50,002 bases of DNA from an uncultured Mycobacteriaceae bacterium (GTDB taxonomy: Bacteria > Actinomycetota > Actinomycetes > Mycobacteriales > Mycobacteriaceae): assembly GCA_902826815.1 (NCBI GenBank), contig CADEGF010000024.1:41762-91763 (forward strand). The letters run 5' to 3'. Below are positions 15,362-34,521 of this stretch, piece after piece. The notes beneath the pieces are model-generated. The model was not told the origin of the DNA. It did not search any database and worked only from the letters and a program-made list of their open reading frames with translations. Both the position numbers and the translations under genes were made by a program. Every line of letters begins with the position of its first letter. Positions within the stretch are counted from its first letter, which is position 1.

Positions 15362-15425
15362 TTGCGGTGCCTGGTTTGAATAGATATATTTTCGTTTATT
15401 AGAAGTAGTATTCCGCATACCGGAA
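15362..15425 (+). promoter_or_regulatory. Predicted aceB promoter with IclR-type operator
   Basis: TTGCGG (15362-15367) and TATATT (15385-15390) are spaced by 17 bp and resemble a SigA -35/-10 pair. TTCCGCATACCGGAA (15411-15425), with perfect 5-bp arms around a 5-bp centre, would lie just downstream of the transcription start. The same element recurs near 31.8, 33.5 and 34.5 kb. The region is visibly AT-rich against its surroundings. Repression by the IclR protein encoded at 33648-34442 is inferred. Confidence 0.65.
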
Positions 15426-15447
15426 ATTTATCGATGGAGGAGCTCCC

Positions 15448-17049
15448 ATGCGCACGCCTGACGGCATCGAGATCACGGGGCCGATGCACGACCGCTTCGA
15501 CGAAGTGCTCACCCCCCGAGCGCTTGAGCTCATCGGACTACTGCATAGCGAATTCGACGGTCGCCGCCGGGCATTGCTGGACGATCGAAAAGCGCGAGTG
15601 GAGGCTCTCGCCAACGGCTCCTCGCTGGGATTCCTCGAAGAGACACGGGCGGTCCGCGACGACACCTCATGGCGGGTCGCTGCACCCGCACCAGGACTCG
15701 AAGATCGGCGCGTCGAAATCACAGGTCCGACCGATCGCAAGATGAGCATCAACGCCTTGAACTCCGGCGCCAAGGTCTGGCTCGCTGATCATGAGGACGC
15801 GAATACGCCCTTGTGGGAGAACGTCATCGGCGGTCAGATCAACCTGCTCGATGCCGTCAACGGAGAGTTGCGCTACACCAGCCCCGAAGGCAAGCATTAC
15901 GCAGTTCATCAAGACGATGTGCCAACGATCGTCGTTCGCCCACGCGGCTGGCACCTGCCCGAGAAGCACATTCGGGTGGACGGTGAGGAGACGTCAGGGG
16001 CGCTGATCGATTTCGCCCTCTACCTCTCTGCATGCGGCGAAAAGCAAATCACTCGGGGGTCCGGGCCGTACTTCTACCTGCCGAAGATGGAGTCTCATCT
16101 GGAGGCGAGGCTGTGGAACGACGTTTTCAACACGGCCCAGGATCAGCTCGGGATTCCACGAGGCACCATTCGCGCAACCGTCTTGATCGAGACCTATCCC
16201 GCCGCATTCGAGATGGAGGAGATTCTCTACGAGCTGCGGGACCACTGCGCAGGTCTCAACGCGGGTCGGTGGGACTACATGTTCAGCGTGATCAAGAGCT
16301 ACCGGACCCGCGGGAAGGAGTTCCTCCTACCCGACCGCAACTCTGTGACGATGACCGTTCCGTTCATGCGCGCCTATACAGAGCTACTCGTCAGCACATG
16401 CCACCGACGGGGGGCTCACGCGATCGGCGGAATGGCGGCGTTCATCCCGAGCAAGGATCCCGAAATCAATTCGGCTGCCTTTGCGAAGGTCCGCGACGAC
16501 AAGGCGCGAGAAGCGGGCGACGGTTTCGACGGCTCGTGGGTTGCGCACCCCGGGATGGTCGACATCTGCAAAGCGACGTTCACCGAAGTCCTCGGCGAAC
16601 GGCCCAACCAGATCGGAAACCTCCGCGCGGACGTGAATGTCACTGCTGCGCAGCTGCTCGACGTGCCGTCGACTCCTGGCGATGTCACGATCGAGGGCCT
16701 GCGAAGCAACATCAGCGTCGGGATCCAGTATCTCGAGTCTTGGCTGCGCGGGTCGGGGGCCGTCGCCATCAACAATCTGATGGAGGACGCCGCGACCGCG
16801 GAAATCTCCAGGAGTCAAGTCTGGCAGTGGTTGCACAACTCGGTAACACTCGCCGACGGTGACACGGTGACAAGCGATCTGGTGGAAAAGACCATCGAGG
16901 ATGAGATCGCGAAGATCTCAGACCGAGTAGGCACCGAGGCCTACGCTGCGGGCCGGTGGAGCGAGGCGAGGACGACATTCACCGACATGGCCCTCGACGA
17001 GGAGTTCGCCGACTTCCTGACACTTCCTGCCTACGAGAGAATGCCGTGA
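15448..17049 (+). CDS. aceB: Malate synthase A
   Basis: 533-aa enzyme condensing glyoxylate with acetyl-CoA to malate. Length and motifs are those of isoform A (about 530 aa), not the roughly 740-aa GlcB of M. tuberculosis. The signature RDHCAGLNAGRWDYMF lies near residues 264-279. Other family blocks are WLADHEDANTPLWENV, GPYFYLPKMESHLEARLWND, ATVLIETYPAAFEMEEIL and GGMAAFIPSKDPEIN. GGAGGAG precedes the ATG at a good distance. It leads aceB-glcD-glcE-glcF, so it probably disposes of glyoxylate made by the glycolate oxidase subunits. Confidence 0.94.
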   Translation: MRTPDGIEITGPMHDRFDEVLTPRALELIGLLHSEFDGRRRALLDDRKARVEALANGSSLGFLEETRAVRDDTSWRVAAPAPGLEDRRVEITGPTDRKMSINALNSGAKVWLADHEDANTPLWENVIGGQINLLDAVNGELRYTSPEGKHYAVHQDDVPTIVVRPRGWHLPEKHIRVDGEETSGALIDFALYLSACGEKQITRGSGPYFYLPKMESHLEARLWNDVFNTAQDQLGIPRGTIRATVLIETYPAAFEMEEILYELRDHCAGLNAGRWDYMFSVIKSYRTRGKEFLLPDRNSVTMTVPFMRAYTELLVSTCHRRGAHAIGGMAAFIPSKDPEINSAAFAKVRDDKAREAGDGFDGSWVAHPGMVDICKATFTEVLGERPNQIGNLRADVNVTAAQLLDVPSTPGDVTIEGLRSNISVGIQYLESWLRGSGAVAINNLMEDAATAEISRSQVWQWLHNSVTLADGDTVTSDLVEKTIEDEIAKISDRVGTEAYAAGRWSEARTTFTDMALDEEFADFLTLPAYERMP

Positions 17050-17056
17050 CCCTCCG

Positions 17057-18562
17057 GTGGTGCCGGATCTGGACGTGCTGGATGTGACAGCTGCGACACC
17101 AGGGTCGGCGCTGGACGCCGTCAGGAAACGAAGTCTTGCGGTGCTACCGCCGGACGCAGTGATCACGGACCGGGCCCGGCTCCGCACCTACGAGTGCGAT
17201 GGCCTCACGCACTACAAGGTCACGCCGAAGTTGGTGGTGCTGCCGCAGACCGCCGACCAACTGGCTGCAGTGATCAAGGCCTGCGCGAGCCACCGAGTTC
17301 CATTCGTCGCGCGCGGGTCGGGTACCGGATTATCGGGTGGCGCCCTGCCAGCCGAGAACGGCGTCCTGGTGGTGACGTCGCGGATGCGCGGTATCACCGA
17401 TATCCGCCCGGCGGACCAGCGCGCTATCGTCGAGCCGGGTGTCATCAATACCGATGTGACCAATGCTGTTGCCCCTCTGGGCTATTACTACGCGCCCGAC
17501 CCGTCCAGTCAGCAGATCTGCTCCATCGGCGGCAACGTCGCGGAAAATTCCGGCGGAGCGCACTGCCTGAAATACGGGTTCACCTCCAACCACGTGTTGG
17601 GGGCCACGCTTGTCACGCCCCTTGGCGAGGTGGTCGAACTCGGCGGGCTCGCGCCGGATACTCCCGGCTACGACCTGTTGGGCGCAGTCGTCGGCTCCGA
17701 GGGAACCCTCGGGGTTGTCACATCGGTGATCCTCCGATTGACCCGCGCACCAGAGGTAGTGCGCACCGTCCTGGCTGGTTTCAGATCGACTGACGACGCA
17801 GGCGCGGCCACCTCAGCCATCATCGCCGCGGGCATCGTGCCTGCCGCGATCGAGATGATGGACGCCCTGGCAATCGAGGCCGCAGAAGCTGCCGTCCGCT
17901 GCAACTACCCCGAAGGCGCAGGCGCGGTACTGGTCGTCGAACTGGACGGCGCCGCCCCGGAAGTCGAGCACGAACTCAGCGCAGTGGAAGAGCGCTGCGC
18001 CGAGCATGGTGCGTTCGAAATGCGGGTAGCGACCGATCCCGCGGAGCGTGCATTGATCTGGAAGGGGCGAAAGTCCGCGTTTGCCGCTGTCGGTCAGATC
18101 AGCCCCGACTACATCGTGCAGGACGGCGTGATCCCGAGGACGTCGCTGCCAGAGGTTCTCCGTGCGATCGCCGAGCTCTCGGCATCGTCAGACGTGCGGG
18201 TAGCCAACGTATTCCACGCCGGCGACGGCAACCTGCATCCGCTTGTCCTCTTCGACGATTCCATCGAAGGGGCGGGTGAGTCCGCCGAGAAGGTCAGTGG
18301 CGCAATCCTCGACCTCTGTATCCATCACGGCGGCTCGATCACCGGTGAACACGGCGTCGGCGTCGACAAGGCGTCCTACATGCCCCGAATGTTCAGCGAT
18401 GACGATCTCGACACCATGCAGCTCGTTCGCTGCGCATTCGACCCGGCTGGAATATCCAACCCTGGAAAGATCTTCCCGACCCCCCGGCTGTGTGGCGAAG
18501 TCCCGGGCCGGCGGAAGGCCGCGCACCCTGCGCAACAGGCCGGTCTGGCGGACGTGTTCTAA
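17057..18562 (+). CDS. glcD: Glycolate oxidase FAD-linked subunit GlcD
   Basis: 501-aa flavoprotein that oxidises glycolate (or a related 2-hydroxy acid) to the 2-oxo acid. The FAD_binding_4 domain covers about residues 55-230, with FVARGSGTGLSGGALP, SIGGNVAENSGGAHCLKYG and VGSEGTLGVVTSV. The FAD-oxidase C domain holds NVFHAGDGNLHP and GGSITGEHGVGVDK, the conserved His/Glu region. The GTG start lies 7 bp after aceB; other in-frame starts would cut into conserved sequence only later, so the exact N-terminus is uncertain by a few residues. glcE abuts the stop with no gap. D-lactate dehydrogenase is the main alternative, but the E/F partners argue for GlcD. Confidence 0.92.
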   Translation: MVPDLDVLDVTAATPGSALDAVRKRSLAVLPPDAVITDRARLRTYECDGLTHYKVTPKLVVLPQTADQLAAVIKACASHRVPFVARGSGTGLSGGALPAENGVLVVTSRMRGITDIRPADQRAIVEPGVINTDVTNAVAPLGYYYAPDPSSQQICSIGGNVAENSGGAHCLKYGFTSNHVLGATLVTPLGEVVELGGLAPDTPGYDLLGAVVGSEGTLGVVTSVILRLTRAPEVVRTVLAGFRSTDDAGAATSAIIAAGIVPAAIEMMDALAIEAAEAAVRCNYPEGAGAVLVVELDGAAPEVEHELSAVEERCAEHGAFEMRVATDPAERALIWKGRKSAFAAVGQISPDYIVQDGVIPRTSLPEVLRAIAELSASSDVRVANVFHAGDGNLHPLVLFDDSIEGAGESAEKVSGAILDLCIHHGGSITGEHGVGVDKASYMPRMFSDDDLDTMQLVRCAFDPAGISNPGKIFPTPRLCGEVPGRRKAAHPAQQAGLADVF

Positions 18563-19846
18563 ATGGGCAGCCCTGTGCGGCAACCTCATACCGGCCTCGG
18601 CAGGGCGGCCCGCTCTGCGCTTGACGCCGCGTGCTGTCGGCTGGACGACGCGAAGCCTGCCGACGCTATCGATGGAGTGCGTCCGGAGTTCGTTGCACGG
18701 GCGTCCTCGACCGGGGAGGTCTCCGAGGTCCTGCGAGCAAGCGCCGCATACGGATTCGACGTGGTTGTGCGCGGGCGGGGAACAAAGCTCGCGTGGGGCA
18801 TGCCGCCGGAGAGGGTGGATGTTCTATTGGACATCAGCGCCATGGACAAGGTGCTCGACCACGCCGCCGGCGATCTTGTAGTCGCCACCCAGGCGGGAAG
18901 TCGCCTTGCCGACGTGCAAACCGTTGTCTCCGTTGCCGGACAGCGGTTGGCAATCGACGGCATCGTCCCCGGCGAAACCATTGGTGGCGCACTCGCCTGC
19001 AATACCAGCGGCCCTCGCCGGATGAGCGCAGGGACGATGCGCGATCTGCTGATCGGCATCACCGTCGTCCGCCCAGACGGCGTGGTCGCCAAGGCGGGAG
19101 GGCGCGTCGTCAAGAATGTCGCCGGTTACGACCTTGGCAAGCTGATGATCGGATCGTTCGGGACGCTCGCGGTGATCACAGAAGCCATCTTCAGGCTGCA
19201 CCCGGTTCCTGCTGCACGGGGGTTCATCAGTGTTCCTGTGGACACCGCTGCCCGGGCTCATCATGTCGTCCAGCGGGTACTGGGGTCGCAGATCGTGCCG
19301 GTTGCGCTCGAAGTGGATTGGCCACCTGAGGGCATGGGCATGTTGACCCTGCTCATCGAGGGGTCCGCTTCCGGCGTTTCGAGTCGCCTGTCCCATGCGC
19401 TCGGTGTTCTCGGCGACAGCGCCCGGGAATCCGATTCGGCACCCGATGGCTGGTCGAGCTACCCGTGGTCCGTCAACAGCCCCGCCGACCGCCGAGCGAC
19501 CGCACTCAAGCTCACGTTCGCTTTGTCCGGGCTCGAGGGTGTCCTGACGGCAGTGCGTTCGTCACAGGTACCGATCACTTTGCGCGGTTCCGCAGGCGCG
19601 GGAGTCGTCTACGGTGCGGTCCCGGCAGAGGTGGACGAAACGGAGGTTCGCGAGGCGGTGCGGCGGCTTCGACGCACCTGTGCAGAACATGGCGGCAGCG
19701 TCGTCGTCGTCGACGGTTGTCCGCACATAAAGCAAACGGTCGACGCGTGGGGACGAGTGCCTGCCGTTGAGCTCATGCGACGCGTCAAAGACCGATTCGA
19801 TCCCGACCGCCGACTCGCGCGGGGACGATTCATTGGAGGTATCTGA
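18563..19846 (+). CDS. glcE: Glycolate oxidase FAD-binding subunit GlcE
   Basis: 427-aa second flavoprotein of the GlcDEF complex. FAD_binding_4 motifs are VVVRGRGTKLAWGMPP and DGIVPGETIGGALACNTSG, with GRVVKNVAGYDLGKLMIGSFG in the middle. The C-terminal HIKQTVDAWGR and DRFDPDRRLARGRFIGGI are typical of GlcE. ATG 18563 directly follows the glcD stop, so translation is coupled. It acts at the inner face of the membrane with GlcD and GlcF. Confidence 0.92.
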   Translation: MGSPVRQPHTGLGRAARSALDAACCRLDDAKPADAIDGVRPEFVARASSTGEVSEVLRASAAYGFDVVVRGRGTKLAWGMPPERVDVLLDISAMDKVLDHAAGDLVVATQAGSRLADVQTVVSVAGQRLAIDGIVPGETIGGALACNTSGPRRMSAGTMRDLLIGITVVRPDGVVAKAGGRVVKNVAGYDLGKLMIGSFGTLAVITEAIFRLHPVPAARGFISVPVDTAARAHHVVQRVLGSQIVPVALEVDWPPEGMGMLTLLIEGSASGVSSRLSHALGVLGDSARESDSAPDGWSSYPWSVNSPADRRATALKLTFALSGLEGVLTAVRSSQVPITLRGSAGAGVVYGAVPAEVDETEVREAVRRLRRTCAEHGGSVVVVDGCPHIKQTVDAWGRVPAVELMRRVKDRFDPDRRLARGRFIGGI

Positions 19847-19847
19847 A

Positions 19848-21221
19848 ATGGTCGGGCCACCGGAACCGATGGCGCGCAAGGATGGTCCAGCCATCAGCTT
19901 GGGTATGCCATCGCTCATAACGGCGTTCGATGATCACAGACCGCCCGATGCAGCCTTGGTCGGCGACTGCGTGCACTGCGGTTTCTGCCTGCCGACCTGT
20001 CCGACCTACGTCCTCTGGGGTGAGGAGATGGACTCACCACGAGGTCGCATCTACCTGATGAAGGAGGGCCTCGAAGGCGAACCGCTGACAGACTCCATGG
20101 TCGGCCACTGGGATAACTGTCTCGGTTGCATGGCGTGTGTCACGGCGTGTCCCTCCGGGGTGCAATACGACAAACTGATCGATTCCACGCGGGCACAAGT
20201 GGAACGCCGCCACCGTCGGCCAGTGCGGGAACGCGCTCTGCGGGCGCTGATCTTCGCCTTGTTTCCTCGTCCGCGCAGATTGCGTTTGCTCCGCGGCCCG
20301 TTACGGGCGTACCAGTGGGTCGGTGCAGACACATTCCTACGCCGGAGCGGATGGATAGATCGACTCGCCCCCCGACTCGCCGTGATGGAGAGTCTTACGC
20401 CGCGGCTCGTCAAGGCACCGCGACTCGTCGGCCGCCACAAGGCAATTGGTGAACGACGTGGTGTGGTGGGTCTCCTCACCGGATGCGTGCAGCGCGAGTT
20501 CTTTCCAGGAGTGAACGCCGCCACTGTCCGCGTACTGCAGTCTGAGGGTTGCGATGTCGTCGTCCCGAAGGCTCAGGGATGCTGCGGAGCGCTGTCCGCG
20601 CACGCCGGTCGACAGGCCGAGGCACAGAAATACGCACGATCCGTCATCGACGCGTTCCGCGTCAGCGGGGTCGAACGCGTGGTCGTCAACGCGGCTGGTT
20701 GCGGGTCCGCCATGAAGGAGTATGCCGACCTGCTGTCCGACGACCCTGCCTACGCAGAGTCCGCGGCCGCCTTCGCCGCCTCCGTGCGCGACGTTGCGGA
20801 GGTCCTCGTCGAGATGGGACCTGTCGCCAAGCGCCATCCGCTGAACGTGACAGTCGCTTATCACGACGCATGCCACCTCGCGCACGCGCAAGGCATCCGG
20901 AGTCAGCCGCGCCAACTCCTCCGTGAGATTCCGGGTCTGGAACTCCGCGAGATCGCCGAGAGCGAGATCTGCTGCGGTTCCGCAGGAATCTACAACATCT
21001 TGAACCCAGAACCTGCGCGCGAGCTCGGAGATCGCAAGGCCCGCAACATCTTGGCCACCGAGGCGCAGCTGTTGGTGACCGCTAACCCCGGCTGTCTGAT
21101 GCAGGTCGCTTCCGCCATCAAACGAACTGGCACTTCGATCGGTTTGGCTCACACGATCGAGGTGATCGACGCTTCGATCAGTGGCCGCTCTACTGCGGAC
21201 CTCACCGTCGACGCCGGGTAG
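19848..21221 (+). CDS. glcF: Glycolate oxidase iron-sulfur subunit GlcF
   Basis: 457-aa electron-transfer subunit. Two ferredoxin-type 4Fe-4S motifs are seen: C41-x2-C44-x2-C47-x3-C51 and C91-x2-C94-x2-C97-x3-C101. Two CCG domains follow (CCGALSAHAG, then YHDACHLAHAQG and CCGSAG), as in GlcF and the heterodisulfide reductase-like proteins. The frame is open to 19767, but ATG 19848 has GGAGG 8 nt upstream and lies 1 bp after the glcE stop. It converges with the AccD-like gene, 9 bp apart. Confidence 0.93.
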   Translation: MVGPPEPMARKDGPAISLGMPSLITAFDDHRPPDAALVGDCVHCGFCLPTCPTYVLWGEEMDSPRGRIYLMKEGLEGEPLTDSMVGHWDNCLGCMACVTACPSGVQYDKLIDSTRAQVERRHRRPVRERALRALIFALFPRPRRLRLLRGPLRAYQWVGADTFLRRSGWIDRLAPRLAVMESLTPRLVKAPRLVGRHKAIGERRGVVGLLTGCVQREFFPGVNAATVRVLQSEGCDVVVPKAQGCCGALSAHAGRQAEAQKYARSVIDAFRVSGVERVVVNAAGCGSAMKEYADLLSDDPAYAESAAAFAASVRDVAEVLVEMGPVAKRHPLNVTVAYHDACHLAHAQGIRSQPRQLLREIPGLELREIAESEICCGSAGIYNILNPEPARELGDRKARNILATEAQLLVTANPGCLMQVASAIKRTGTSIGLAHTIEVIDASISGRSTADLTVDAG

Positions 21222-21230
21222 CCGACCACA

Positions 21231-22706
21231 TCAGAATCGGCCGTAGCGCTGCGTCACCAGGTCATCGACGTTGCGCTGCAATAGCGCAGCGAGTTCGTAG
21301 CGAAGGACTTCGCCTAATCGCATGCAGAACGCCACGGGTTCATCTGCAGCGTCAGGCATTTCAGCGACGATCCGGTCAACGATACCGTTGTTGAGCAGGT
21401 CTGTGGAGCTGACTTGCTGCGCCCTCGCCATCTCTGGCGCATGCCGGATGTCGCGGTAAGCAATGGCGGACGCGCCTTCCGGCGGAAGCGGAGCCAGCCA
21501 GGCGTTCTGCGCGGCAACCACTTTGTCTGCGGGCAGGAGCGCGAGGGCACCGCCGCCCGTCCCCTCACCCAGCAGAATCGCCAGCGTCGGCGTCCGCAAC
21601 GTCACTAGATCCGCCAAACAGCCGGCGATCTCACCGGCTGTGCCGCCTTCTTCAGCCTCGACGGACAGGGCCAGGCCCGGGGTGTCGATCACGGTGACCA
21701 ACGGCAGCCGAAGCTCAGCGGCCAGATGCATCGCGCGCCTCGCCTCGCGCAAGCCGCCGGGGCCCAGTCTCGAATCATGCGCCTGAAAACGTCGATCCTG
21801 GCCCAACACGACGCAGGGCAGAGATCCGATCCGCGCCAACGCGATCAGCAGCGCAGGGTCACGTTCGCCGTGACCGGTGCCGCTCAACGGGACGAAGGAG
21901 GTGGCGATGCACCGCAGGAGTTCGCGGATACCCGGACGCTCCCGACGTCGGGAGCTGATTACAGCGTCCCAGCCATCTTCCAACCGAGGCTTAGCGCTGC
22001 ACGGGTCACGCATATCGCATTGCCCGTCGCGATTCGCAAGCAGGATTCCCAACGTCCGGTCGAGAACGTGGGCAAGGCAGTCCGGAGGAACCACGGCATC
22101 TATCAGCCCGCGATGATAGAGGTTCTCGGCAGTCTGCACGCCGGAAGGGAACGGACGTTCATATAATGCCTCGTAGACACGCGGACCCAGGAAGCCGATT
22201 AGGGCGTGAGGTTCGGCCGCTGTCACGTGACCTAGCGAGCCCCATGATGCGAGGACTCCGCCCGTCGTCGGGTGGCGCAGGTAGACAAGATAAGGGAGCC
22301 CAGATGCCTTGTGTCGTGCGATGGCCGAACTGACTTTGACCATCTTCACAAACGCGAGAGTTCCTTCCTGCATCCGCGTGCCACTCGAGGCAGGCGCCGC
22401 AAGCAGAGGCAGGCGCTGCGCCGTTGCCCGCTCGACCGCCGCGACGATGCGGAGTGCGGAGGCGACGCCGATCGACCCGCCCATGAAATCGAACTCGACC
22501 ACGATCACGGCGACTCGACGACTCCGCAAGAGGCCTTCTCCGGTTACTACACATTCGTCGAGACCTGTTCGCTGCTGGGCGGATTGGAGCTGAGCGGCAT
22601 AGGTCTCGGCGATGACACCGTGATCAGGAGGCACGTCCCAAGACACAAAGGAGCCCTCGTCAAGGACGAGATCGAGCAGTTCGCGCGCCGACAGTCGTTC
22701 GCTCAA
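21231..22706 (-). CDS. Acyl-CoA carboxylase carboxyltransferase, AccD3-like (AccD/AccA fused)
   Basis: About 491 aa with both carboxyltransferase halves. The N-terminal half contains VVEFDFMGGSIGVASALRIV, SSGTRMQEGTLAFVKMVK and LRHPTTGGVLASWGSLG. The C-terminal half contains LVTVIDTPGLALSVEAEEGG, LGEGTGGGALALLPADKV and LAPLPPEGASAIAYRD. It closely resembles the AccD3 (Rv0904c) family as I recall it. No biotin carboxylase or biotin-carrier gene is nearby, so it would rely on a shared AccA subunit. TTG 22706 overlaps the CoA-transferase stop as TTGA and gives the usual length; an upstream GTG at 22772 is possible but lies wholly within that gene. Confidence 0.85.
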   Translation of the reverse strand: MSERLSARELLDLVLDEGSFVSWDVPPDHGVIAETYAAQLQSAQQRTGLDECVVTGEGLLRSRRVAVIVVEFDFMGGSIGVASALRIVAAVERATAQRLPLLAAPASSGTRMQEGTLAFVKMVKVSSAIARHKASGLPYLVYLRHPTTGGVLASWGSLGHVTAAEPHALIGFLGPRVYEALYERPFPSGVQTAENLYHRGLIDAVVPPDCLAHVLDRTLGILLANRDGQCDMRDPCSAKPRLEDGWDAVISSRRRERPGIRELLRCIATSFVPLSGTGHGERDPALLIALARIGSLPCVVLGQDRRFQAHDSRLGPGGLREARRAMHLAAELRLPLVTVIDTPGLALSVEAEEGGTAGEIAGCLADLVTLRTPTLAILLGEGTGGGALALLPADKVVAAQNAWLAPLPPEGASAIAYRDIRHAPEMARAQQVSSTDLLNNGIVDRIVAEMPDAADEPVAFCMRLGEVLRYELAALLQRNVDDLVTQRYGRF

Positions 22707-23905
22707 GGTCGGCCGTTTCTGGCGGCCGGGCCGCCGTTGCGTCCTTGCTCGTCCGCAGGGCGTTCCAACCACTCGCGGACCGAGTCGTTGTGCTGGCCCA
22801 ATTGCGGTGGCGGCAGATTTTTCTCACGGCTCCCTGCGAATGCGTTGTCATCGAAACGCAGTGCAGGCCCTGGAAGATTGATCGCGCCAAGCGCCGGATG
22901 ATTCACGTCGATGAGCAAGCCTTGTGATCGCGCCTGATCCCAGGAGTAGACCTCGTCGATGCGGCGAACCCTGCCGGCGGGAACTCCTATCTCAGCTAAG
23001 CGGTCCAGCCAGTGCTCCGTCGTTTCACTCTTGAGAACGCCCTCTACATCATGGATCAGCTGATCTCGTGACGCGACCCGCTCCCTATTCGAGCGATAAC
23101 CGGCGTCGTCGATACCGAGGAGATGCGAAAGCAGCTGCCATAGGCCATCATTCCCGCATGCGATCTGGATGAACGAGTCGCTTGTGCGAAAGAGACCGTA
23201 AGGTGCGATCGACGGATGATGGTTACCATCGATGGCCGCCACTTCGCCTGCAACCGTCGAGCGCGTGCCCTGGAATGCGTGCACTCCGACCACAGACGCA
23301 AGCAGACTGGTGCGTACGACACTGCCGCGACCCGTCGCGGCACGCAAATGGAGCGCCGCGAGGACGCCGAACGCTCCATTCATCCCCGCGAGTAGATCAG
23401 CGATGGGCACTCCGACGCGGACGGGTTCCTCAGGATTGATACCGGTCACGGACATCAGGCCGCCCTCCCCCTGTGCGATCTGGTCATAACCGGCGCGCCC
23501 ACCCTCGGGTCCGTCGTGACCGAAGCCAGTGATCGATAGCACCACAAGGCGCGGATTGAGCTCGTGCAGAACCTCATTGGAGAATCCGAGGCGATCGAGT
23601 ACGCCCGTGCGGAAGTTCTCCATCAGCACGTCGGCTCGCCGAACCAGTTGAGTCAGCAACGCTCGTCCCTCGTCGCTCTTCAGGTCGGCGGTAACCGACT
23701 CCTTGTTGCGGTTGCACGACAGGAAGTAAGTCGATTCGGTCTCATCTCCGAAGCCGACGAAGGGCGGCCCCCACGATCGCGACTCATCGCCACGCCTGGG
23801 CGATTCCACCTTGATCACCCGCGCCCCAAGGTCGCCGAGCATCATGGCGGCGTGGGGGCCGGCAAGAGCCCGCGTAAGGTCGATGACCAGTAGGTCGGAA
23901 AGCAT
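22703..23905 (-). CDS. CoA-transferase family III (CaiB/BaiF type)
   Basis: 400-aa protein of the formyl-CoA/crotonobetainyl-CoA transferase family, moving CoA between carboxylic acids. Landmarks: LLVIDLTRALAGPHAAMMLG and LGARVIKVESP at the N-terminus, SCNRNKESVTADLK, ADVLMENFRTGVLDRLGF, and RAGYDQIAQGEGGLMSVTG, whose Asp (141 from this start) is the expected catalytic residue that forms the acyl anhydride. ATG 23905 starts at the conserved domain and has GGAAGGAG upstream, at a rather wide spacing; the frame stays open to 23998. It overlaps the AccD3-like gene, so the two form a pair. The acyl substrate cannot be told from sequence. Confidence 0.88.
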   Translation of the reverse strand: MLSDLLVIDLTRALAGPHAAMMLGDLGARVIKVESPRRGDESRSWGPPFVGFGDETESTYFLSCNRNKESVTADLKSDEGRALLTQLVRRADVLMENFRTGVLDRLGFSNEVLHELNPRLVVLSITGFGHDGPEGGRAGYDQIAQGEGGLMSVTGINPEEPVRVGVPIADLLAGMNGAFGVLAALHLRAATGRGSVVRTSLLASVVGVHAFQGTRSTVAGEVAAIDGNHHPSIAPYGLFRTSDSFIQIACGNDGLWQLLSHLLGIDDAGYRSNRERVASRDQLIHDVEGVLKSETTEHWLDRLAEIGVPAGRVRRIDEVYSWDQARSQGLLIDVNHPALGAINLPGPALRFDDNAFAGSREKNLPPPQLGQHNDSVREWLERPADEQGRNGGPAARNGRP

Positions 23906-25452: not shown

Positions 25453-26500
25453 GCGACACCTCCAAGATCTCGTCCGATCGGTGACAGCTGCTCTGGCGGC
25501 CCGGTGCGATTTCATGCAGCACCGGCGCCCTCGTCGCGCAGACGGCTTCTGCGTATTCACAACGTGCGTGAAACGGGCAACCAGGCGGAACATTCATCAG
25601 GTCGGGAGGTGAGCCGACGATCGGCTTGAGGCGTGCGACCTTCTCGTAGATATCGGGTACCGAGGACATCAACCCGAGCGTGTATGGGTGCCCCGGTTGA
25701 GTGAACACTTCTTCGATCGCGCCGGTCTCACATGCGCGCCCGCAATACATCACGACCACGCGGTCCGCGGTTTCGGAGACGAGGCCCAGGTCATGCGTGA
25801 TGAGAATCAGGCCCATGCCGGTCTGACGGCGCATCTCTTCCAGTAGCGCCATGATCTGCGCCTGTACCGTCACATCGAGGGCAGTTGTGGGTTCGTCCGC
25901 GATGAGAACGGCGGGGTCGAGTGCCATCGCCATCGCGATGCTGACGCGCTGGCGCATGCCACCTGAGAACTCATAGGGGTAGTCGTTGACCCGCTTCTTC
26001 GCGCCGGGGATACCGACGCGATCGAGCAATTCAGCCGCCCGGGCCATACCCTCTCGCCTCGACGCTCCACGGTGCACTCGAAATGCCTCGGCGATCTGCC
26101 AACCAACCGAAAACACCGGGTTCAAAGACGAGTTCTGCGCCACCATCGCGATCTCCTCGCCGCGCAGTTGCCTGCGGCGGGACTCCTTCATCGACAGCAG
26201 ATCCTCGCCGTTGAGCATTGCAGCGCCCGCTGTGACCTCCGCCGTTGGCGGGTTCAGTCCCAGCACGGCCCTGGCGCCGACACTCTTGCCTGAGCCACTC
26301 TCACCGACGATTGCCAAGGTCTCACCGGAATGCAGTGAGTAGCTGAGCCGCGACACTGCGTGCACGACGCCGAGCCGCAGGCGGAACTGCACGGAAAGAT
26401 CCTTAACCTCGAGCACCGGTGTGCAATCTTGGACCCGAGTTGGTGAACCATTGCCAGGCCTGTTGTCCCGCTTCACATTCGACACCATCAGTTCAGCCAC
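25436..26500 (-). CDS. Peptide/opine-type ABC transporter ATP-binding protein (DppD-like)
   Basis: 354-aa partner ATPase. Walker [11 protein letters not shown]-loop [15 protein letters not shown], signature [19 protein letters not shown], Walker [17 protein letters not shown] and [15 protein letters not shown] are all intact. The C-terminal [15 protein letters not shown] and [15 protein letters not shown] mark the oligopeptide class. The GTG start at 26500 abuts the upstream permease stop; ATG 26488, four codons later, is also possible. With the DppF-like protein it powers the importer. Confidence 0.92.
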
Positions 26501-27469
26501 CTATTCCGAATCCTGAGCTCGTCGGACCGTGTCTGCCAAGACATTCGCGGAGATTGCCGTCGCGGTGATGGCCAATCCAGGGAATATCGCAACCCACCAG
26601 GCGTCGCGAAGGTAATTGCGGCCTTCCGAGATCATGCTTCCCCATGTGAAGCTCGGATCCCGCACGCCGAGACCTAGGAAGCTCAAGGCCGATTCGGAAA
26701 GAATGACGAGGGCGAACTCGAGGGTCGCCAGCGTCACCAACGATGCCGCGATGACCGGAAGAATCTGCCGGAAGACTATCCGGAAAGAGCTCGCTCCCAA
26801 TGCTCGTGCAGCGTCGATGAACAGTCGCTCTCGCACCGCAAGAGTTTCGGCGCGTGCCACTCTGGCGTAGAGCGGAAGGCGGGTGGCGGCCAACACGAAG
26901 ATCAGCGCAGGCAGACTGGGGCCGAGCGTGTAGAGAACGATCAACGCGAGCAGCAGCGATGGGAACGCCATCATCACATCCGCGCTGCGCATCGCGACGG
27001 AATCGAGTCTTCCGCCGATGTACCCGACAGCCGTGCCGACCAGGGTGCCGATCAGCGCCGCCGCTAGTACGGCTGACACGGCGATGACGAGGGTGGTTCG
27101 GGCGGCCACGATCAATCGGGCGAGAAAGCTACGTCCGAGGGCGTCGCTGCCCAGGATGTACATGTAGCCGTTCGCAGTGTCGAGCGGCGGCGTGAAACGC
27201 CACGCGAGATGTGCTTCTGTTGCCGCATGGCCTACCAGCGTGGGTCCAATTACCGCCGCCAGGAGGAGAATTGCGAGATACGCGACGGCGATCTGCCCGA
27301 GCCGGTCCTGCCTGAGCACATACCGGAATCTGACCAGAAAGCCGTCATGTCGCCGGATCGCCTCTGCCTCACCGCCCCCGGTCGCTGGAGCCTGCTGACG
27401 GCTTTCGACGTCGTGAGGTTCCTGAGCCGGTCGCGGCGCACGAGCTTTCCTGGGTCGCATAAATGTCAT
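26501..27469 (-). CDS. ABC transporter permease (DppC-like)
   Basis: 322-aa inner-membrane permease. The N-terminal 45 residues are polar, followed by about six membrane helices. GSDALGRSFLARLIVAARTT is the DppC hallmark, and ERLFIDAARALGASSFRIVF is the EAA loop that docks the ATPase. The C-terminal SFLGLGVRDPSFTWGSMISE also matches the family. Start ATG 27469 lies 1 bp after the dppB-like stop. Confidence 0.92.
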   Translation of the reverse strand: MTFMRPRKARAPRPAQEPHDVESRQQAPATGGGEAEAIRRHDGFLVRFRYVLRQDRLGQIAVAYLAILLLAAVIGPTLVGHAATEAHLAWRFTPPLDTANGYMYILGSDALGRSFLARLIVAARTTLVIAVSAVLAAALIGTLVGTAVGYIGGRLDSVAMRSADVMMAFPSLLLALIVLYTLGPSLPALIFVLAATRLPLYARVARAETLAVRERLFIDAARALGASSFRIVFRQILPVIAASLVTLATLEFALVILSESALSFLGLGVRDPSFTWGSMISEGRNYLRDAWWVAIFPGLAITATAISANVLADTVRRAQDSE

Positions 27470-27470
27470 A

Positions 27471-28397
27471 TCAGGTCAGCGCTCCGAGTCGGATCTGGGG
27501 GTTGAGCCAGGAGTACGCAAGATCGATCAAGAAGTTCAAGACGATGATCGCCGCCCCTGTGACGAGGACGACCGCCTGAATCACGGCAAAGTCTCTGCCG
27601 CGGATGGCCGTAACCATCAGGTTGCCGACACCTGGCCACCCGAAGACCGTCTCGACGACCAACGCACCGTTCACCAGCTGCGCGAGGAGCACGCCCGCGA
27701 CGGTGACGATCGGCAGCGCCGCATTCCGCAGTGCATGCTTGAGAACGACCGATAGCTCGGCGACTCCCTTACTCCGTGCCACTCGGACATACTCGGAGTC
27801 GAGTTGCTCGATCATCGTGCTGCGGGCGACCTGAGTCAGCACCCCTATCGGCCGCAACGACAGGGCGATGAGTGGCAGAATCCAGTACTGCACGCCTCCC
27901 GCGCCAGAGGTCGGCAGCACATTCAGGAAGACGGCGAAAACCGCGATTCCAGTGATGCCGACCCAGAAGTCGGGGACGCTCAGCGCCACCAAGGACGTCA
28001 GCCGAGTCGCGTTGTCCGCCTTCGTCCCCCGACGAGCAGCACCGATGCAGCCGATGAGGACGCCGACGACGGTGAAGATCACCGTCGCAACCGCGGCCAG
28101 CTGCAGCGTCGCGGGGTAACGGGCCATGACAACGCTCAGTGCGGAGTCGTTGTAGAGCAGCGACCGCCCAAAATCCAAATGCGCGACACCCTTGATGAAG
28201 TTCCACAGCTGGATGTAGACCGGCTGATCGAATCCGTTCGCTGCGTCGAACTGTCGAACCATCTCCTCGGTGGCGTCTTCTGGGAGATACAACCGCGCAG
28301 GACTACCGGTGAGACGAGACAGAACGAACACGAGCAAGACGATCCCAACCAAACTGAGCAGCCCGTGTAACGACCTCTGCAGTACGAAGCGCGTCAT
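27471..28397 (-). CDS. ABC transporter permease (DppB-like)
   Basis: 308-aa permease with an N-terminal helix (LLSLVGIVLLVFVLSRL), a periplasmic loop with FDQPVYIQLWNFIKGVAHLD and FGRSLLYN, and the EAA loop EYVRVARSKGVAELSVVLKH. The C-terminal FGWPGVGNLMVTAIRGRDF is diagnostic for DppB/OppB. It pairs with the DppC-like permease downstream. A 62-bp gap separates it from the binding-protein gene. Confidence 0.92.
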   Translation of the reverse strand: MTRFVLQRSLHGLLSLVGIVLLVFVLSRLTGSPARLYLPEDATEEMVRQFDAANGFDQPVYIQLWNFIKGVAHLDFGRSLLYNDSALSVVMARYPATLQLAAVATVIFTVVGVLIGCIGAARRGTKADNATRLTSLVALSVPDFWVGITGIAVFAVFLNVLPTSGAGGVQYWILPLIALSLRPIGVLTQVARSTMIEQLDSEYVRVARSKGVAELSVVLKHALRNAALPIVTVAGVLLAQLVNGALVVETVFGWPGVGNLMVTAIRGRDFAVIQAVVLVTGAAIIVLNFLIDLAYSWLNPQIRLGALT

Positions 28398-28459
28398 GCG
28401 TAACCCTTCGAATTGGCCTGCACTCAGTGGACGGTGACGAACGAGAGGCGCAGGTCGAC

Positions 28460-30034
28460 CTACGCGCTCTGTTCCTCACTGACGGTGAACTCTGAAATCG
28501 GCATGCGCTCCGACGTCGACGAATCCGGCTCGTAGTGAAGGAGGGGATTGGCGATGATCAGAGTGTTCTTCAGGTACGCGAGCGGAATCAGCGGCACGAC
28601 TTTCTCGAAGATGTATCGAGAAGCGGCCTGGAGCTTGGCTGCCCGATCGGCGCCGGACGCCGCCGAGCCCGCGGCCAAGAGCTCCTCCAGACCCTGATCA
28701 CACACGAGGCTTTGCGGGCCGTCGCATCCCAACTTCCCGGCAAGGCTGATGTACCCATCACCGAACGAGTTCCCGTGGACATTCTGAATGAGCTCGGGAT
28801 TCGCGGCGGGATCCTGAGGTTTGGCAATGACGGGAGCAGTGTCCTCGACCGTGGCGACCCGTGCGTTAAAGCCCACCGCGGTCAGCATGGCCCGCATCGT
28901 GTCGTCGACTTCGTTGCCGTTGGAGCCCCGGATACCCGTCTCACCGATGAGGTCGATCGTCTTGTCGACGGGGACACCGTCGGCCTTCGCCTCCGCAATC
29001 AACTTTTTCGCAGTCTCTGGTTGATAGTCCCACTTCACCGTCGGATCGTTACCGACCACCGAAGGCAGGAAGATCTCACTCGCCGGCTCTCCGAGACCGT
29101 TGTAGACGTTGTTGATGAGGGTCTGACGGTCGATCGCATAATTCAGTGCTCTGCGGATACGAATGTCGTTGAGCATTGGGACATCCAGATTGATCCGATA
29201 GTAGAGGGTCTCGGACACCGTGTAGGTGATTGCGCCCTCGGCCTTGGAATCCTGTGGGCCGATCGCCGCGGCCACGTCAACTTCGTGCGTCGAGGCCATC
29301 GCTGCCCGCACCGAGGACTCGGAGCGGAATTTGTAGTTCACCGATTCTATCTGCGGTGCGTCTCCCCAGTAATCGGCATAGCGAGTGACATTGAAATCAC
29401 TGCCTGGCGTGTAGCTGGTGAACTGGTATGGCCCCGTACCGACCGGCTTGGTCGCCTTTGTGAGCGGGTCGTCGGTCGGCGCGCCGATGTCGACGAATGC
29501 CATGCTCAACGGCAGGATTGGATCGGGCTTCTGCAGCAAGATGTCTACCGTGGTGTCGTCAACCGCTTTGGCGGACAACACATTGTCGGTCAGCACACTG
29601 CCGAGGGCGTAGCACTCCGCCTTCGGATTGATGACGCGATTCACCCACCAAGCCACCGCCTCCGCGTTGAACGGCCGACCGTCGTGGAAGGTGACACCGG
29701 GCCGCAATTTGAACGTCCACACCGTCGGTGACGTCTGTGTCCACGACAGCGCAAGTCGCGGTGACAGTGTGTTATCCCGGACATCGAGGTGTACCAACGG
29801 TTCAGTGATGTTGTCCACCAGAATCGGCCCATTAGCCGAGAGGTGAGAATCACACGGGTCCAGGCTCGACGGTTCGTTCTGAAGGACCACCCTGATTTGC
29901 GCACGACTGGAATCGACGGTGTTGTTGCCACCCGACGGACCACCGCACGCCGACACGAGAATTATCAGGGCGCAAGTCAGAATCCATACGCGCCTCGTGC
30001 GCGAATGCCTTCTGCTTGACGCAGCGTGATTCAC
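28460..30034 (-). CDS. ABC transporter substrate-binding lipoprotein (SBP family 5)
   Basis: 524-aa extracytoplasmic solute-binding protein. The signal has RR/HSRTRR followed by a hydrophobic core and lipobox VSAC (Cys30), so it is lipid-anchored outside the membrane. Family 5 blocks: NEPSSLDPCDSHLSANGP, VWTFKLRPGVTFHDGRPFNA, PVGTGPYQFTSYTPGSDF and DIRIRRALNYAIDRQTLINN. This class binds peptides, opines, nickel complexes or sugars; the ligand cannot be read from sequence. GTG 30034 has AAGGAA 6 nt before it and overlaps the UGSC gene stop (GTGA). The open frame upstream is a shadow of that gene. Confidence 0.92.
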   Translation of the reverse strand: MNHAASSRRHSRTRRVWILTCALIILVSACGGPSGGNNTVDSSRAQIRVVLQNEPSSLDPCDSHLSANGPILVDNITEPLVHLDVRDNTLSPRLALSWTQTSPTVWTFKLRPGVTFHDGRPFNAEAVAWWVNRVINPKAECYALGSVLTDNVLSAKAVDDTTVDILLQKPDPILPLSMAFVDIGAPTDDPLTKATKPVGTGPYQFTSYTPGSDFNVTRYADYWGDAPQIESVNYKFRSESSVRAAMASTHEVDVAAAIGPQDSKAEGAITYTVSETLYYRINLDVPMLNDIRIRRALNYAIDRQTLINNVYNGLGEPASEIFLPSVVGNDPTVKWDYQPETAKKLIAEAKADGVPVDKTIDLIGETGIRGSNGNEVDDTMRAMLTAVGFNARVATVEDTAPVIAKPQDPAANPELIQNVHGNSFGDGYISLAGKLGCDGPQSLVCDQGLEELLAAGSAASGADRAAKLQAASRYIFEKVVPLIPLAYLKNTLIIANPLLHYEPDSSTSERMPISEFTVSEEQSA

Positions 30035-31782: not shown

Positions 31783-31797
31783 TTCTGCACACCGGAA
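31783..31797. promoter_or_regulatory. IclR-type operator copy in the UGSC leader
   Basis: TTCTGCACACCGGAA matches the aceB element at 13 of 15 positions and keeps the TTC-G/CGGAA arms around a 5-bp centre. It lies 46-60 bp upstream of the UGSC start codon, probably downstream of the transcription start. Confidence 0.6.
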
Positions 31798-31832
31798 GTG
31801 ATCAGAAACACTAAATTTCTTTTGGTAGATAG

Positions 31833-31860
31833 ATGTTATCTCTTGCAAAGCGGAAGTCAA
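31833..31860 (-). promoter_or_regulatory. Predicted UGSC operon promoter with operator in the spacer
   Basis: On the minus strand TTGACT (31860-31855) and TAACAT (31838-31833) are 16 bp apart and resemble a SigA promoter. A variant of the 15-bp element, TCTTGCAAAGCGGAA on the plus strand (31841-31855), fills the spacer and touches the -35 box, so a bound regulator would block polymerase. Prediction by eye. Confidence 0.55.
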
Positions 31861-32093
31861 TGCCATCAAGGGTGTTTTTTTCCGTAGAACTGAATCTAAC
31901 TTCCACAATGCGATATTATTCAGGGACGGTCGATCCCAGTGCCGGACCCGATCTTCTGCGCTTCGAGCCTGGCTTACCAGGCGCCCGTGGCGGACCGGAA
32001 CTGCAACTCGCTTGCGGAGCAGGCTTTGCTGGGCCAAATACGCGACGGGGTGTTAGGGGTGCGACAACAACCTCCCAATGCGGAAGGTTTCCT

Positions 32094-33440
32094 TTAGAGG
32101 AAGGCCGCCAATTCCGCGAGCAACTTCGATTTCGGCTTGGCCCCGGCAATCGTGTGGACCACCACGCCGCTCCGGTAAATCTTCATGGTCGGAAGCGATG
32201 TCACTGAATACTCGGCTGCCGTTGCCGGGTTCTCGTCCACGTTGAGCTTCGCGACGACGAGACGGTCGGAGACCTCTCCCGCGACCTGGTCCAAGACCGG
32301 AAGAACCAGGCGGCATGGGCCGCACCACTCCGCCCAGAAATCGACGAGCACGGGCAGCTCGCTCTCCAGCACTTCGGTTTGGAAGTTCAACTCGGTGACG
32401 GTTCGAACCCGTGAGCCTGTTGACGGAATGATCCCGTTCGTCTCAATCGAACGTCCATCGCGGATGGCTGGTTGACCAGTTCGCTGGCTGCGGTTTTTGG
32501 ACTGACTGCCCTTTTCGGATAGGTAGCGCTCTGCGTCGAGCGCAGCCGCACATCCTGACCCCGCAGCCGTGATCGCTTGGCGGTAGGTGCGATCGACCAG
32601 GTCGCCTGCTGCGAAGACACCGTCGATGTTCGTGAACGTCGACCCGCCCTTCACTCGGACGTATCCCTCGTCGTCGAGGTCCACCTGATCGCGAACGAGA
32701 TCTGATCGTGGAGTATGGCCCACCGCGATGAAAAGGCCGGTGACGGCAAGTCGATGGTCAGCACCGCTTTCCGTGTGCTTGAGGTGCAGCCCGTCGACTC
32801 GATCCTCGCCGAGGATGTCGAATACCTCATGGTTCCACAGGAACTCGATGTCCGAGTTCGACATTGCGCGATCGACCATCACCCTGCTGGCCCGAAGTTC
32901 GTCCCGCCGATGGATGACGGTGACCTTCGATGCGAACCTCGTGAGGAACATCGCTTCCTCGAGCGCAGAGTCGCCGCCTCCGACCACTGCTATCTGCTGA
33001 TCCCGGAAGAACGCGCCGTCACACGTCGCGCACCAACTGACCCCTCGGCCGGACAGTCTGTCCTCACCGCCGAGTCCGAGCCGCCGGTATTCGGATCCCA
33101 TGGCAAGGATCACCGATCGTGCGACGTGCGTTTCGCCATCTATATCTGTGACGGATTTGAACTCGCCTGCAAGGTCAACGGCACTCACATCGTTCGCCAC
33201 AAAGTCGACGCCGAACTTCGCCGTCTGGAGTCTCATCTTCTGCATAAGCTCGGGTCCGGTGACGCCCTCGGGAAAACCAGGAAAGTTCTCCACGTCCGTA
33301 GTGGTCATCAGTGCACCGCCACTTGTGACCGAACCCTCGAAAACGAGGGGCACCAGATTCGCGCGCGCGGCGTACAGCGCCGCTGTATATCCAGCAGGGC
33401 CCGACCCGATGATGATGAGATCGCGGATCGTGTCGTTCAC
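32094..33440 (-). CDS. Thioredoxin reductase-thioredoxin fusion protein
   Basis: 448-aa bifunctional protein. Residues 1-310 are an NADPH-dependent thioredoxin reductase: FAD site IIGSGPAGY, redox pair C137-A-T-C140 (CATCDGAFF), NADPH site [12 protein letters not shown] and HRRDELRAS, and the C-terminal FAD motif [11 protein letters not shown] 35-residue polar linker leads to a complete thioredoxin (about 345-448) with W372-C-G-P-C376 and the cis-Pro segment [12 protein letters not shown]. Such a fusion is known from Mycobacterium leprae. GTG 33440 has GAGGAG 6 nt upstream. It sits between the UGSC operon and iclR, on the same strand as both, and likely supplies electrons to the UGSC protein. 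Confidence 0.94.
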
Positions 33441-33531
33441 AAGCGGCTCCTCTGCGCAGCGCTAAGCGTGAATGGCGAGCAGTTCCAGACCCATGCGACC
33501 ATAGACCATATTTTGTTCTACGGACTAGTAA

Positions 33532-33546
33532 TTCTGCATAGTGGAA
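33532..33546. promoter_or_regulatory. IclR-type operator copy upstream of the TrxR-Trx fusion
   Basis: TTCTGCATAGTGGAA matches the aceB element at 12 of 15 positions. It lies in the 207-bp gap between iclR and the TrxR-Trx gene, about 92-106 bp before the GTG start. The gap is AT-richer than the flanking genes. I could not define a convincing -35/-10 pair. Confidence 0.55.
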
Positions 33547-33647
33547 AAGTCGCCAACCCACCCGTCGGCCACGGTTCACCTCAGCGAAGGTTTACTAGGC
33601 GCCGATCGCCGCGCACTACTGGGCCGAACGCCGGCTACCGGGCCAGA

Positions 33648-34442
33648 TCACGCGTTGAGATTGGTTGCGAACGCCCGCGCGGCTATCTGTAGCGATTCAA
33701 ACGCGTGATCGAGGACCTGATCGCTCATCCGGGCAGCAGGCCCGGAGATCGACATCGCAAGCCGCAGTGGAGCATCGAGCACGGGAACTGCGATACACCG
33801 CACGCCTACCTCTTGCTCACCCTCATCAGTGGCGTACCCTCGCGTTCTGATCAGGTCGAGCTGCGCGAGCAGCTCAGGCACGTCCGTGATCGTTGATTCT
33901 GTCTGGACCGGCATTCCGGCGCGCTGAATGATTTCGCGCACCTTGACTTCTTCGAATTGCGCAAGCATGACTTTCCCAACTGCTGTGCAATGCAACGGGA
34001 CTCGCCGACCCACCTCTGTGAACATCCTCATTTGGTGTCGCGACGGCACCTGGGCCAAATAAACCGCGTGATCACAATCGAGCACTGCGAGATTCGCCGA
34101 TTCCCCGACCTCTGAAACCAGCTTCAACAGGTGCGGTCGTGCCCACGCAGCAAACATCTGAGTGGAGCCCTCGGCCAGCCGAGTCAGCCTCGGACCAACG
34201 GCGTATTGGCGCGACGGCTCCTGCCGCAGATAACCGAGGCCTACCAGAGTCCGCACCAGACGATGGATCGTCGGCAGCGGAAGTCCCGTGACATCCGCGA
34301 GTCGCGACAACCCCATCACACCACCGTTGTCCACTACCGTCTCCAGCAGCATGAAGGCCCTGCCAATCGACTGCACACCGCCCGCGCGGGATGAGCTTGT
34401 CTCGGCAGTGCTATCTGGTGCGACGTACGATTCGTCCAGCAT
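33648..34442 (-). CDS. IclR-family transcriptional regulator
   Basis: 264-aa regulator. The N-terminal winged helix-turn-helix (about residues 20-85) has QSIGRAFMLLETVVDNGGVM and LPTIHRLVRTLVGLGYLRQE. The C-terminal effector domain contains VPLHCTAVGKVMLAQF, RTRGYATDEGEQEVGVRCIA and VPVLDAPLRLAMSISGPAAR, all typical of IclR. Family members often control catabolic operons and bind small organic acids such as glyoxylate or pyruvate (E. coli IclR itself). ATG 34442 is the only good start. The promoter holds two copies of the 15-bp element, which suggests autoregulation and control of the whole 15-34 kb region. Confidence 0.93.
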   Translation of the reverse strand: MLDESYVAPDSTAETSSSRAGGVQSIGRAFMLLETVVDNGGVMGLSRLADVTGLPLPTIHRLVRTLVGLGYLRQEPSRQYAVGPRLTRLAEGSTQMFAAWARPHLLKLVSEVGESANLAVLDCDHAVYLAQVPSRHQMRMFTEVGRRVPLHCTAVGKVMLAQFEEVKVREIIQRAGMPVQTESTITDVPELLAQLDLIRTRGYATDEGEQEVGVRCIAVPVLDAPLRLAMSISGPAARMSDQVLDHAFESLQIAARAFATNLNA

Positions 34443-34478
34443 CAGGGCAGCCCCCTCGAACCAATCACGGCCCTCGAT

Positions 34479-34521
34479 TTCCGCATCAAGAAAGTTTACT
34501 CTTGTTTTCCGGTATTTCTGA
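34479..34521. promoter_or_regulatory. Two IclR-type operator copies in the iclR promoter
   Basis: TTCCGCATCAAGAAA (34479-34493) matches the aceB element at 11 of 15 positions. TTCCGGTATTTCTGA (34507-34521) contains a perfect half-site in the opposite orientation (TTCCGGTAT). They lie 37-79 bp upstream of the iclR start, where an autorepressor would bind. Confidence 0.5.

Follow-up and report, generated by a model that had tools for sequence, protein, structure and literature searches.

Tandem Operators Predict an IclR Regulon That Joins Glyoxylate Genes to a UGSC Module in an Uncultured Mycobacteriaceae Bacterium

Introduction

The stretch of DNA considered here, referred to as the window, covers 50,002 nucleotides of an uncultured Mycobacteriaceae bacterium (assembly GCA_902826815.1, contig CADEGF010000024.1, positions 41,762 to 91,763) and lies on contig C24 of a 6.87-Mb genome. 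It holds two gene runs that face each other. One runs on the plus strand from aceB, encoding malate synthase A, to the glycolate oxidase-type gene glcF (15448-21221), and the other on the minus strand from iclR, encoding an IclR-family regulator, at 34442 down to a carboxyltransferase gene at 21231; the latter includes genes for a thioredoxin reductase-thioredoxin fusion (TrxR-Trx), a UGSC fusion protein and an ATP-binding cassette (ABC) transporter. Do these genes answer to one regulator, and if so to which regulator and which signal? An earlier note on this DNA had proposed that a shared 15-bp box and the adjacent iclR gene tie the glycolate/glyoxylate genes and UGSC into one regulon. Our reading, to which we give a probability of about 0.82, is that the leaders carry tandem operators of the group-1 IclR type and that the local IclR most likely controls aceB-glcDEF, the UGSC-ABC transporter unit, TrxR-Trx and its own gene, with a glyoxylate-type signal.

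An Operator Motif Derived Without the Window

Four points come directly from computation: the motif itself, its recovery without the window, the pairing of its sites and its occurrence at orthologous genes. IclR orthologs were taken from plasmids, where the six used show 48-56% identity, and from genomes of the genus, 41 of 297 of which gave matches at an expectation value, E, of 1e-60 (the bacterium's own genome included). Six of the best seven plasmid matches were fetched, a Nonomuraea one (H26) being left out, together with the best 20 of the 47 listed genus matches after the window's own. The 27 loci fetched, 26 of them distinct, comprise six plasmid loci, 19 genus loci, a congener aceB locus (L101) and a second locus of the same genome on contig C10. 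Locus L139 (the same plasmid as L095) and the C10 locus were excluded, leaving 25 training loci. In 70 upstream regions of these loci (16.7 kb) we then looked for palindromes that have any 5-mer as arm and a gap of 0-12 between the arms. The regions lie upstream of iclR and of genes named as glyoxylate targets, and the dyads that seeded the matrix come from the same training set, both of which are possible biases. The top de novo dyad was TTCCG-N5-CGGAA, present in eight regions against 0.019 expected from base composition, followed by TTTCG-N5-CGAAA (seven regions against 0.008). The exact top dyads occur nine times in the 16.7 kb of training regions. They are absent from 1.18 Mb sampled from the window's own genome, a sample of 59 stretches of 20 kb (17%) from parts of the largest contigs, C1-C7, that is not a random draw.

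The full matrix, built from 68 sites in 24 of the 25 training loci, was run over all window positions, and its four best positions fall one each in the leaders of aceB (15411), UGSC (31901), TrxR-Trx (33532) and iclR (34479), in that order. Rank five goes to 47900, and ranks six to eight to 31880, 33511 and 15390. Two narrower training sets, the mycobacterial loci L133-L151 (54 sites in 18 loci) and L095-L101 (16 sites, from five of these seven loci), both keep 15411, 31901, 33532, 34479, 31880, 33511 and 15390 in the top eight. The four leaders, 960 bp in all, hold seven sites that score at least 10 and four that score at least 14, against 0.13 and 0.02 expected from the leaders' own composition. 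At the threshold of 14 the 50-kb window has five matches and the 1.18-Mb sample three.

Each of the four leading sites has a second box at exactly 21 nt (15390/15411, 31880/31901, 33511/33532 and 34479/34500), with partner scores of 10.5, 11.8, 10.7 and 3.5, respectively. Summed over the four sites, partner scores reach 36.4 at 21 nt vs. -31.1 at the next-best offset; neighbouring training sites are likewise spaced by 21 nt (15 cases), 20 nt (two) and 44 nt (one). As pairs, the window sites score 30.3 (aceB), 27.3 (UGSC), 26.0 (TrxR) and 18.1 (iclR), plus one overlapping reading of the aceB pair. The sample holds four pairs at 20 or 21 nt (24.2, 16.2, 12.6 and 7.0), none of which matches the window's best three and one of which exceeds its fourth. 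The genome-wide motif scan that the earlier note had proposed as a check has thus, on the 17% sampled, returned few strong matches away from the region (three single sites, and four pairs of which one scores above 17).

The best of the sampled pairs, at C1:222931 (position 2931 of locus L166), is a tandem IclR-type pair with 20-nt spacing between two divergent reading frames; a different IclR gene, at C1:229729, lies about 7 kb away. The two frames are presumably MmgE/PrpD-like.

The boxes that emerge differ in part from those first listed. All seven stretches quoted in the earlier note carry the correct letters, and the agreement of 11-13 of 15 positions with the aceB box is borne out for its three strong copies (31783, 13/15; 33532, 12/15; 34479, 11/15). 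Two copies that it called weaker agree at 10/15 (31841) and 9/15 (31901); the third, 34507, was rejected as a copy, as it agrees at 6/15, ranks 237 with the matrix and is out of register, being at best a 16-bp imperfect palindrome (TTCCG-N6-CTGAA). Plain 15-mer identity was itself set aside as a test, since 11/15 does not discriminate: 19 window places reach it (both strands, aceB copy counted), five in the leaders, including the overlooked 31880, and 14 elsewhere. Also absent from that list were 15390, 33511 and 34500. The largest revision concerns UGSC, where 31783, taken as the main site, scores 4.7 with the full matrix and gives way to the pair 31880/31901, and where 31901 is far from weak. 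Site 31783 keeps good arms and ranks 15 or 8 with the other training sets; because the eighth place comes from L095-L101 alone, it may serve as an auxiliary site of the UGSC leader. The sites do lie between the main genes; some of them are crossed by mechanical reading frames.

Fit to Published IclR Operators and Conservation

Group-1 motifs of the IclR family follow the pattern WTT-11-AAW, one subgroup reading WTTYCRYW3RYGRAAW, and tandem sites 18-22 nt apart are described for 94 orthologous groups (Suvorova and Gelfand, 2021, PMC8222616). Against this 17-bp consensus, 15411 and 33532 agree at 16 of 17 positions and 31880 and 31901 at 15, and no other 17-mer of the window reaches 15; the iclR box 34479 agrees at 14, a level common to five window places. 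The distance between centres, 21 nt, lies within 18-22 nt in all four leaders, the iclR partner being weak. The parts of the same survey that bear on regulon size describe IclR-family proteins as mostly controlling themselves and one or two adjacent operons (PMC8222616). The window thus resembles the group-1 regulons described there in its consensus, in its spacing rule and, as predicted here, in its plan of autoregulation plus adjacent operons, but it differs from the usual case in comprising four units and in including a UGSC module.

The earlier note had also named conservation in orthologous promoters as a check, and the motif is indeed found at a congener aceB gene and in the hyi-glxR-gcl and iclR leaders of other loci. 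The congener aceB promoter (genome G186; AceB 71% identical) has two boxes 20 nt apart, and its main box keeps all 10 arm letters while all five central letters differ; outside the boxes 21 of 48 aligned letters agree. The UGSC part of the regulon is seen only in the window's genome among the genomes examined: UGSC fusion matches occur in 29 of 396 genus genomes at E 0.001 (own included), and the other listed matches are at most 39% identical. At the eight plasmid UGSC loci L215-L222 the best single matches score 6.8-13.2 bits.

The IclR Regulator, Its Orthologs and Its Paralog

We infer the identity of the binding protein, as well as its ligand and the direction of control. The window IclR passes the family cut-offs (PF09339, 57.5 bits vs. 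22; PF01614, 143.1 bits vs. 24). Its best model is that of BhcR (NF045644), at 175.2 bits and below the cut-off of 350, and it also falls below the Escherichia coli equivalogs for IclR (NF008601, 141.7 bits vs. 380) and AllR (NF007548, 96 bits vs. 406). In 24 of the 26 distinct loci the IclR ortholog is a neighbour of gcl, glcD or a malate synthase gene; the exceptions are L134, a short contig that carries an HpcH gene, and L100, a locus for purine catabolism. Judged by its glyoxylate-gene neighbours and the shared operator, the window IclR appears to belong to an actinobacterial group of glyoxylate-locus IclR proteins.

Several known systems offer comparisons. BhcR governs glycolate and glyoxylate use through the beta-hydroxyaspartate cycle in Paracoccus denitrificans, and, from what is given for it, shares Asp212, Ser239 and Ser241 with the window IclR (PMC11323563). 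The window, however, has malate synthase A and glycolate oxidase genes, and no bhc genes were recognised among the window proteins scanned. AllR of Streptomyces coelicolor, reportedly treated by Navone in 2015, is said to belong to the allantoin pathway; unlike that system, the window showed no recognisable allantoin genes among the proteins scanned. A Streptomyces plasmid (L097) encodes an IclR of 54% identity; the malate synthase A gene of this plasmid, whose product is 58% identical, lies at a distance of about 2.2 kb and carries a box in the leader. The mycobacterial gcl-glxR-hyi loci, including that of the Mycobacterium dioxanotrophicus plasmid NZ_CP020810.1, encode an IclR 53-60% identical to the window's and carry the same motif, with pairing in many, but have gcl-type glyoxylate genes where the window has malate synthase A. 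The window UGSC protein found no tblastn match in them.

The same genome encodes a paralog at C10:111806-112555, which is 58% identical to the window IclR and adjoins gcl-glxR-hyi, whereas none of the 13 further IclR matches in the genome exceeds 36% identity. Its locus (L132, G000:C10:102001-121000) has the same motif in two operator pairs, both spaced by 20 nt, that score 29.2 and 24.4. The paralog gene also stands beside an HpcH-type gene.

Weighing the Alternatives

A number of results weigh against control by the local IclR through these pairs. The partner box at iclR, with 3.5 bits, is weak, and it drops to rank 46 under the other training set of call-independent loci. Searched genome-wide, a tandem profile derived from 17 pairs in other genomes listed only C10:110325 (E 0.019), C1:222932 (E 1.1) and the TrxR pair (E 2.1); the aceB, UGSC and iclR pairs were not listed, and restricting the search to the window and the C10 locus added part of the aceB pair (E 0.74) but neither the UGSC nor the iclR pair. 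Because it misses these three pairs we regard the profile as insensitive, and it changes the case little either way. The pattern TTCYGCAYANNGGAA has exactly three occurrences in the 6.87-Mb genome, all inside the window; it was derived from the window sites themselves, which makes this count circular, and we give the count no weight. Allowing up to two mismatches makes the pattern unspecific, with 274 places vs. 94 for a reversed control. No close relative of the UGSC unit was found in the other congeners searched, so its promoter could not be footprinted, and the UGSC relatives L031 (59% identical) and L032 (54%) have no strong box, the best matches being 1.6 and 5.2 bits. On the protein side, pocket residues 143, 154, 160, 161 and 220 of the window IclR are unlike those of E. 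coli IclR, and 26 of the 36 residues of the helix-turn-helix stretch are identical between the window IclR and the C10 paralog.

This last point bears on the rival that we take most seriously, although we consider it improbable: the C10 paralog would be the main binder, alone or with the local IclR, and the regulon would extend beyond the cluster. The paralog's nearness to the local protein (the next-best of 15 matches in the genome, itself included, is 36% identical), its shared helix-turn-helix residues and the motif at its own locus all speak for this, and the paralog could bind the same sites, so that either protein may do so. Its two pairs are nonetheless spaced by 20 nt rather than the 21 nt of the four window pairs, on account of which we weakly favour the local IclR, and IclR-family control, as surveyed, usually covers the regulator itself and one or two adjacent operons (PMC8222616). 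The earlier note's claim that the adjacent IclR unites the glycolate/glyoxylate genes and UGSC is supported by the rarity of the motif in the sample and by the orthologous promoters, but the genome also encodes a paralog with a similar helix-turn-helix. The local IclR (33648-34442) is the likeliest binder and the simpler answer, its binding being predicted.

It is very unlikely that true operators exist only at aceB and iclR and that the UGSC and TrxR matches arose by chance in AT-richer leaders. The leaders do have 54% G+C against 65% for the window, and 31783 scores poorly with the full matrix; yet the surplus of leader sites given above was reckoned on the leaders' own composition, and the UGSC and TrxR pairs combine exact 21-nt spacing with scores above the best pair of the 1.18-Mb sample. 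We give just as little credence to the idea that the boxes reflect a general group-1 pattern serving another IclR protein of the genome, of the NdgR type or other. Group-1 motifs are described as common to many IclR proteins (PMC8222616), and the 20-nt pair at C1:222931 does lie near a different IclR gene, but the matrix that ranks the window sites first was trained on loci that encode an IclR 48-59% identical to the local protein, above the level of the other 13 IclR proteins of the genome, and an IclR of the right kind is encoded inside the cluster.

Ligand and Direction of Control

Under control by the local IclR, a tetramer could bind palindromes 21 nt apart with both of its dimers on the same side of the helix, and the protein would act from its gene on aceB-glcDEF, the UGSC-ABC transporter unit, TrxR-Trx and itself. 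In E. coli IclR the residues that bind the oxygens of glyoxylate are given as Gly160, Ala161, Asp212, Ser239 and Ser241 (PMC11323563). The last three of these are kept in the window IclR, in which positions 160 and 161 hold Ala and Val, respectively (E. coli numbering); of the four residues of the hydrophobic patch only Met146 is kept. Asp212 and Ser241 are present in 28 of 28 sequences and Ser239 in 27, the 28 being the window and the 27 fetched loci, with L139 and L095 as the same plasmid. Because orthologs adjoin glyoxylate genes in nearly all loci, glyoxylate or a close relative is likely the signal of the window IclR.

As to the direction of control, the layout at aceB suits repression, that at UGSC would suit activation, and the behaviour of BhcR is mixed. 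At aceB we read by eye TTGCGG (15362-15367), 17 bp and a -10-like TATATT (15385-15390), where the operator pair 15390-15425 begins; a promoter scan with stricter rules found none at aceB. A pair that covers the expected start suits a ligand-released repressor, which would sit on the start and leave upon binding its ligand. The scan of the 3 kb between UGSC and iclR gave a single promoter-like pair, TTGACT-16-TAACAT in the UGSC leader (31860-31833, minus strand), with 0.6 expected by chance. It lies downstream of the operator pair 31880/31901; activation is therefore possible at UGSC, with the operator pair perhaps upstream of the promoter. BhcR is described as an activator in vivo, yet glyoxylate lowers its binding in vitro (PMC11323563).

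UGSC and the Other Genes of the Cluster

The UGSC fusion consists of a UGSC domain (residues 8-175), with the motif CGSC (Cys), and, C-terminal to it, a further domain that matches no Pfam family. It exceeds the cut-off of PF24696 (25 bits) and remains below that of NF041046 (94.4 bits vs. 125). Its nearest relative, L031:1731-3407 (59%), carries TGA in place of the codon for the first Cys of the window's CGSC and is presumably a selenocysteine form. In the Global Ocean Sampling set UGSC is one of the major selenoprotein families, and fusion of UGSC to a domain named Unknown_1 is reported as well (PMC2398784); the portions of the papers dealing with the family give no function (PMC2398784, PMC13188914, PMC9312934). 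Searches for relatives of solved structure returned none by single sequence and three chance-level rows (E 0.8-0.9) by profile.

A class III coenzyme A (CoA)-transferase gene lies directly beside UGSC in 13 of 20 same-family loci (L243-L246, L248-L255, L257), which suggests a recurrent UGSC-CoA-transferase module. Two of the 20 (L256, L257) have genes for TrxR and thioredoxin (61-63% and 52-53% identical) near UGSC, and the remaining 18 gave no match to TrxR. Beyond the family, UGSC is directly followed by a thioredoxin domain in L032 and has a thioredoxin reductase nearby in Variovorax (L219). It is a natural inference from these neighbours that the UGSC fusion would be a reductive, thioredoxin-fed enzyme. 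Co-regulation with TrxR-Trx is sensible because UGSC recurs with the CoA-transferase and, in few loci, with thioredoxin genes. Two thioredoxin reductases of the genome exceed the model cut-off, the window TrxR-Trx and another on contig C2. A possible though doubtful extension is that the UGSC fusion and the class III CoA-transferase act on a compound brought in by the peptide-type transporter and free glycolate or glyoxylate, an acid that GlcDEF-AceB would use as substrate and that would also, as the signal, open the four promoters.

The features of the window are collected in Table 1. The AccD/AccA-like carboxyltransferase and CoA-transferase genes are distal on the UGSC strand and might come under IclR within the UGSC-ABC unit; because a gap of 378 bp separates them from dppF, they may instead form a separate unit.

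Table 1. Predicted operators and genes of the window, in window coordinates; ranks and scores refer to the full matrix.
Feature	Coordinates	Strand	Evidence
aceB-glcDEF tandem operator	15390-15404 (TTTCGTTTATTAGAA) and 15411-15425 (TTCCGCATACCGGAA)	+	matrix ranks 8 and 1; best pair of the window
UGSC-unit tandem operator	31880-31894 and 31901-31915	-	matrix ranks 6 and 2; pair score 27.3; 15/17 each to published consensus
TrxR-Trx tandem operator	33511-33525 and 33532-33546	-	matrix ranks 7 and 3; pair score 26.0
iclR operator with weak partner	34479-34493 and 34500-34514 (partner)	-	matrix rank 4; partner rank 20, score 3.5
Possible auxiliary box, UGSC leader	31783-31797	-	13/15 to aceB box; matrix rank 14
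Possible weak box, UGSC leader, inside promoter-like pair	31841-31855	-	matrix rank 12
aceB, malate synthase A, 533 residues	15448-17049	+	TIGR01344 761.7 bits, above cut-off
glcD, glcE, glcF, glycolate oxidase-type subunits	17057-21221	+	GlcF model above cut-off; GlcD and GlcE models below
Fused AccD/AccA-like carboxyltransferase and class III CoA-transferase	21231-23998	-	PF01039, PF03255, PF02515
Peptide/nickel-type ABC transporter, five genes (two ATPases, two permeases, SBP_bac_5 binding protein)	24376-30019	-	domain models
UGSC fusion, 568 residues	30031-31737	-	PF24696 122.6 bits
TrxR-Trx fusion	32094-33440	-	TIGR01292 386.4 bits and TIGR01068 106.9 bits, both above cut-offs
IclR-family regulator, 264 residues	33648-34442	-	PF01614 and PF09339 above gathering scores

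Two further observations concern the rest of the window. The matrix match of rank five (47900-47914, score 14.3) is a single strong box about 40 bp before a reading frame for a flavin adenine dinucleotide (FAD)-linked oxidase (47941-49374, plus strand), and could be a fifth target or a chance match, as 0.13-0.19 matches of at least 14 are expected per 50 kb. Between 39826 and 41061 on the minus strand, a single reading frame contains two TetR-type regulator stretches in tandem.

Significance

The kind of system described here, a local IclR regulon with tandem operators, is known; what is new is a UGSC module under the same predicted control as glyoxylate genes. No other functional clue to the UGSC family was found in the literature searched, and the association of UGSC with its own TrxR-Trx, an importer and glycolate/glyoxylate enzymes in one predicted regulon offers a clue to the pathway in which this family may act. 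The predicted regulon also names glycolate and glyoxylate as candidate inducers, and the analysis has yielded a well-supported operator matrix for the actinobacterial regulators of glyoxylate genes.

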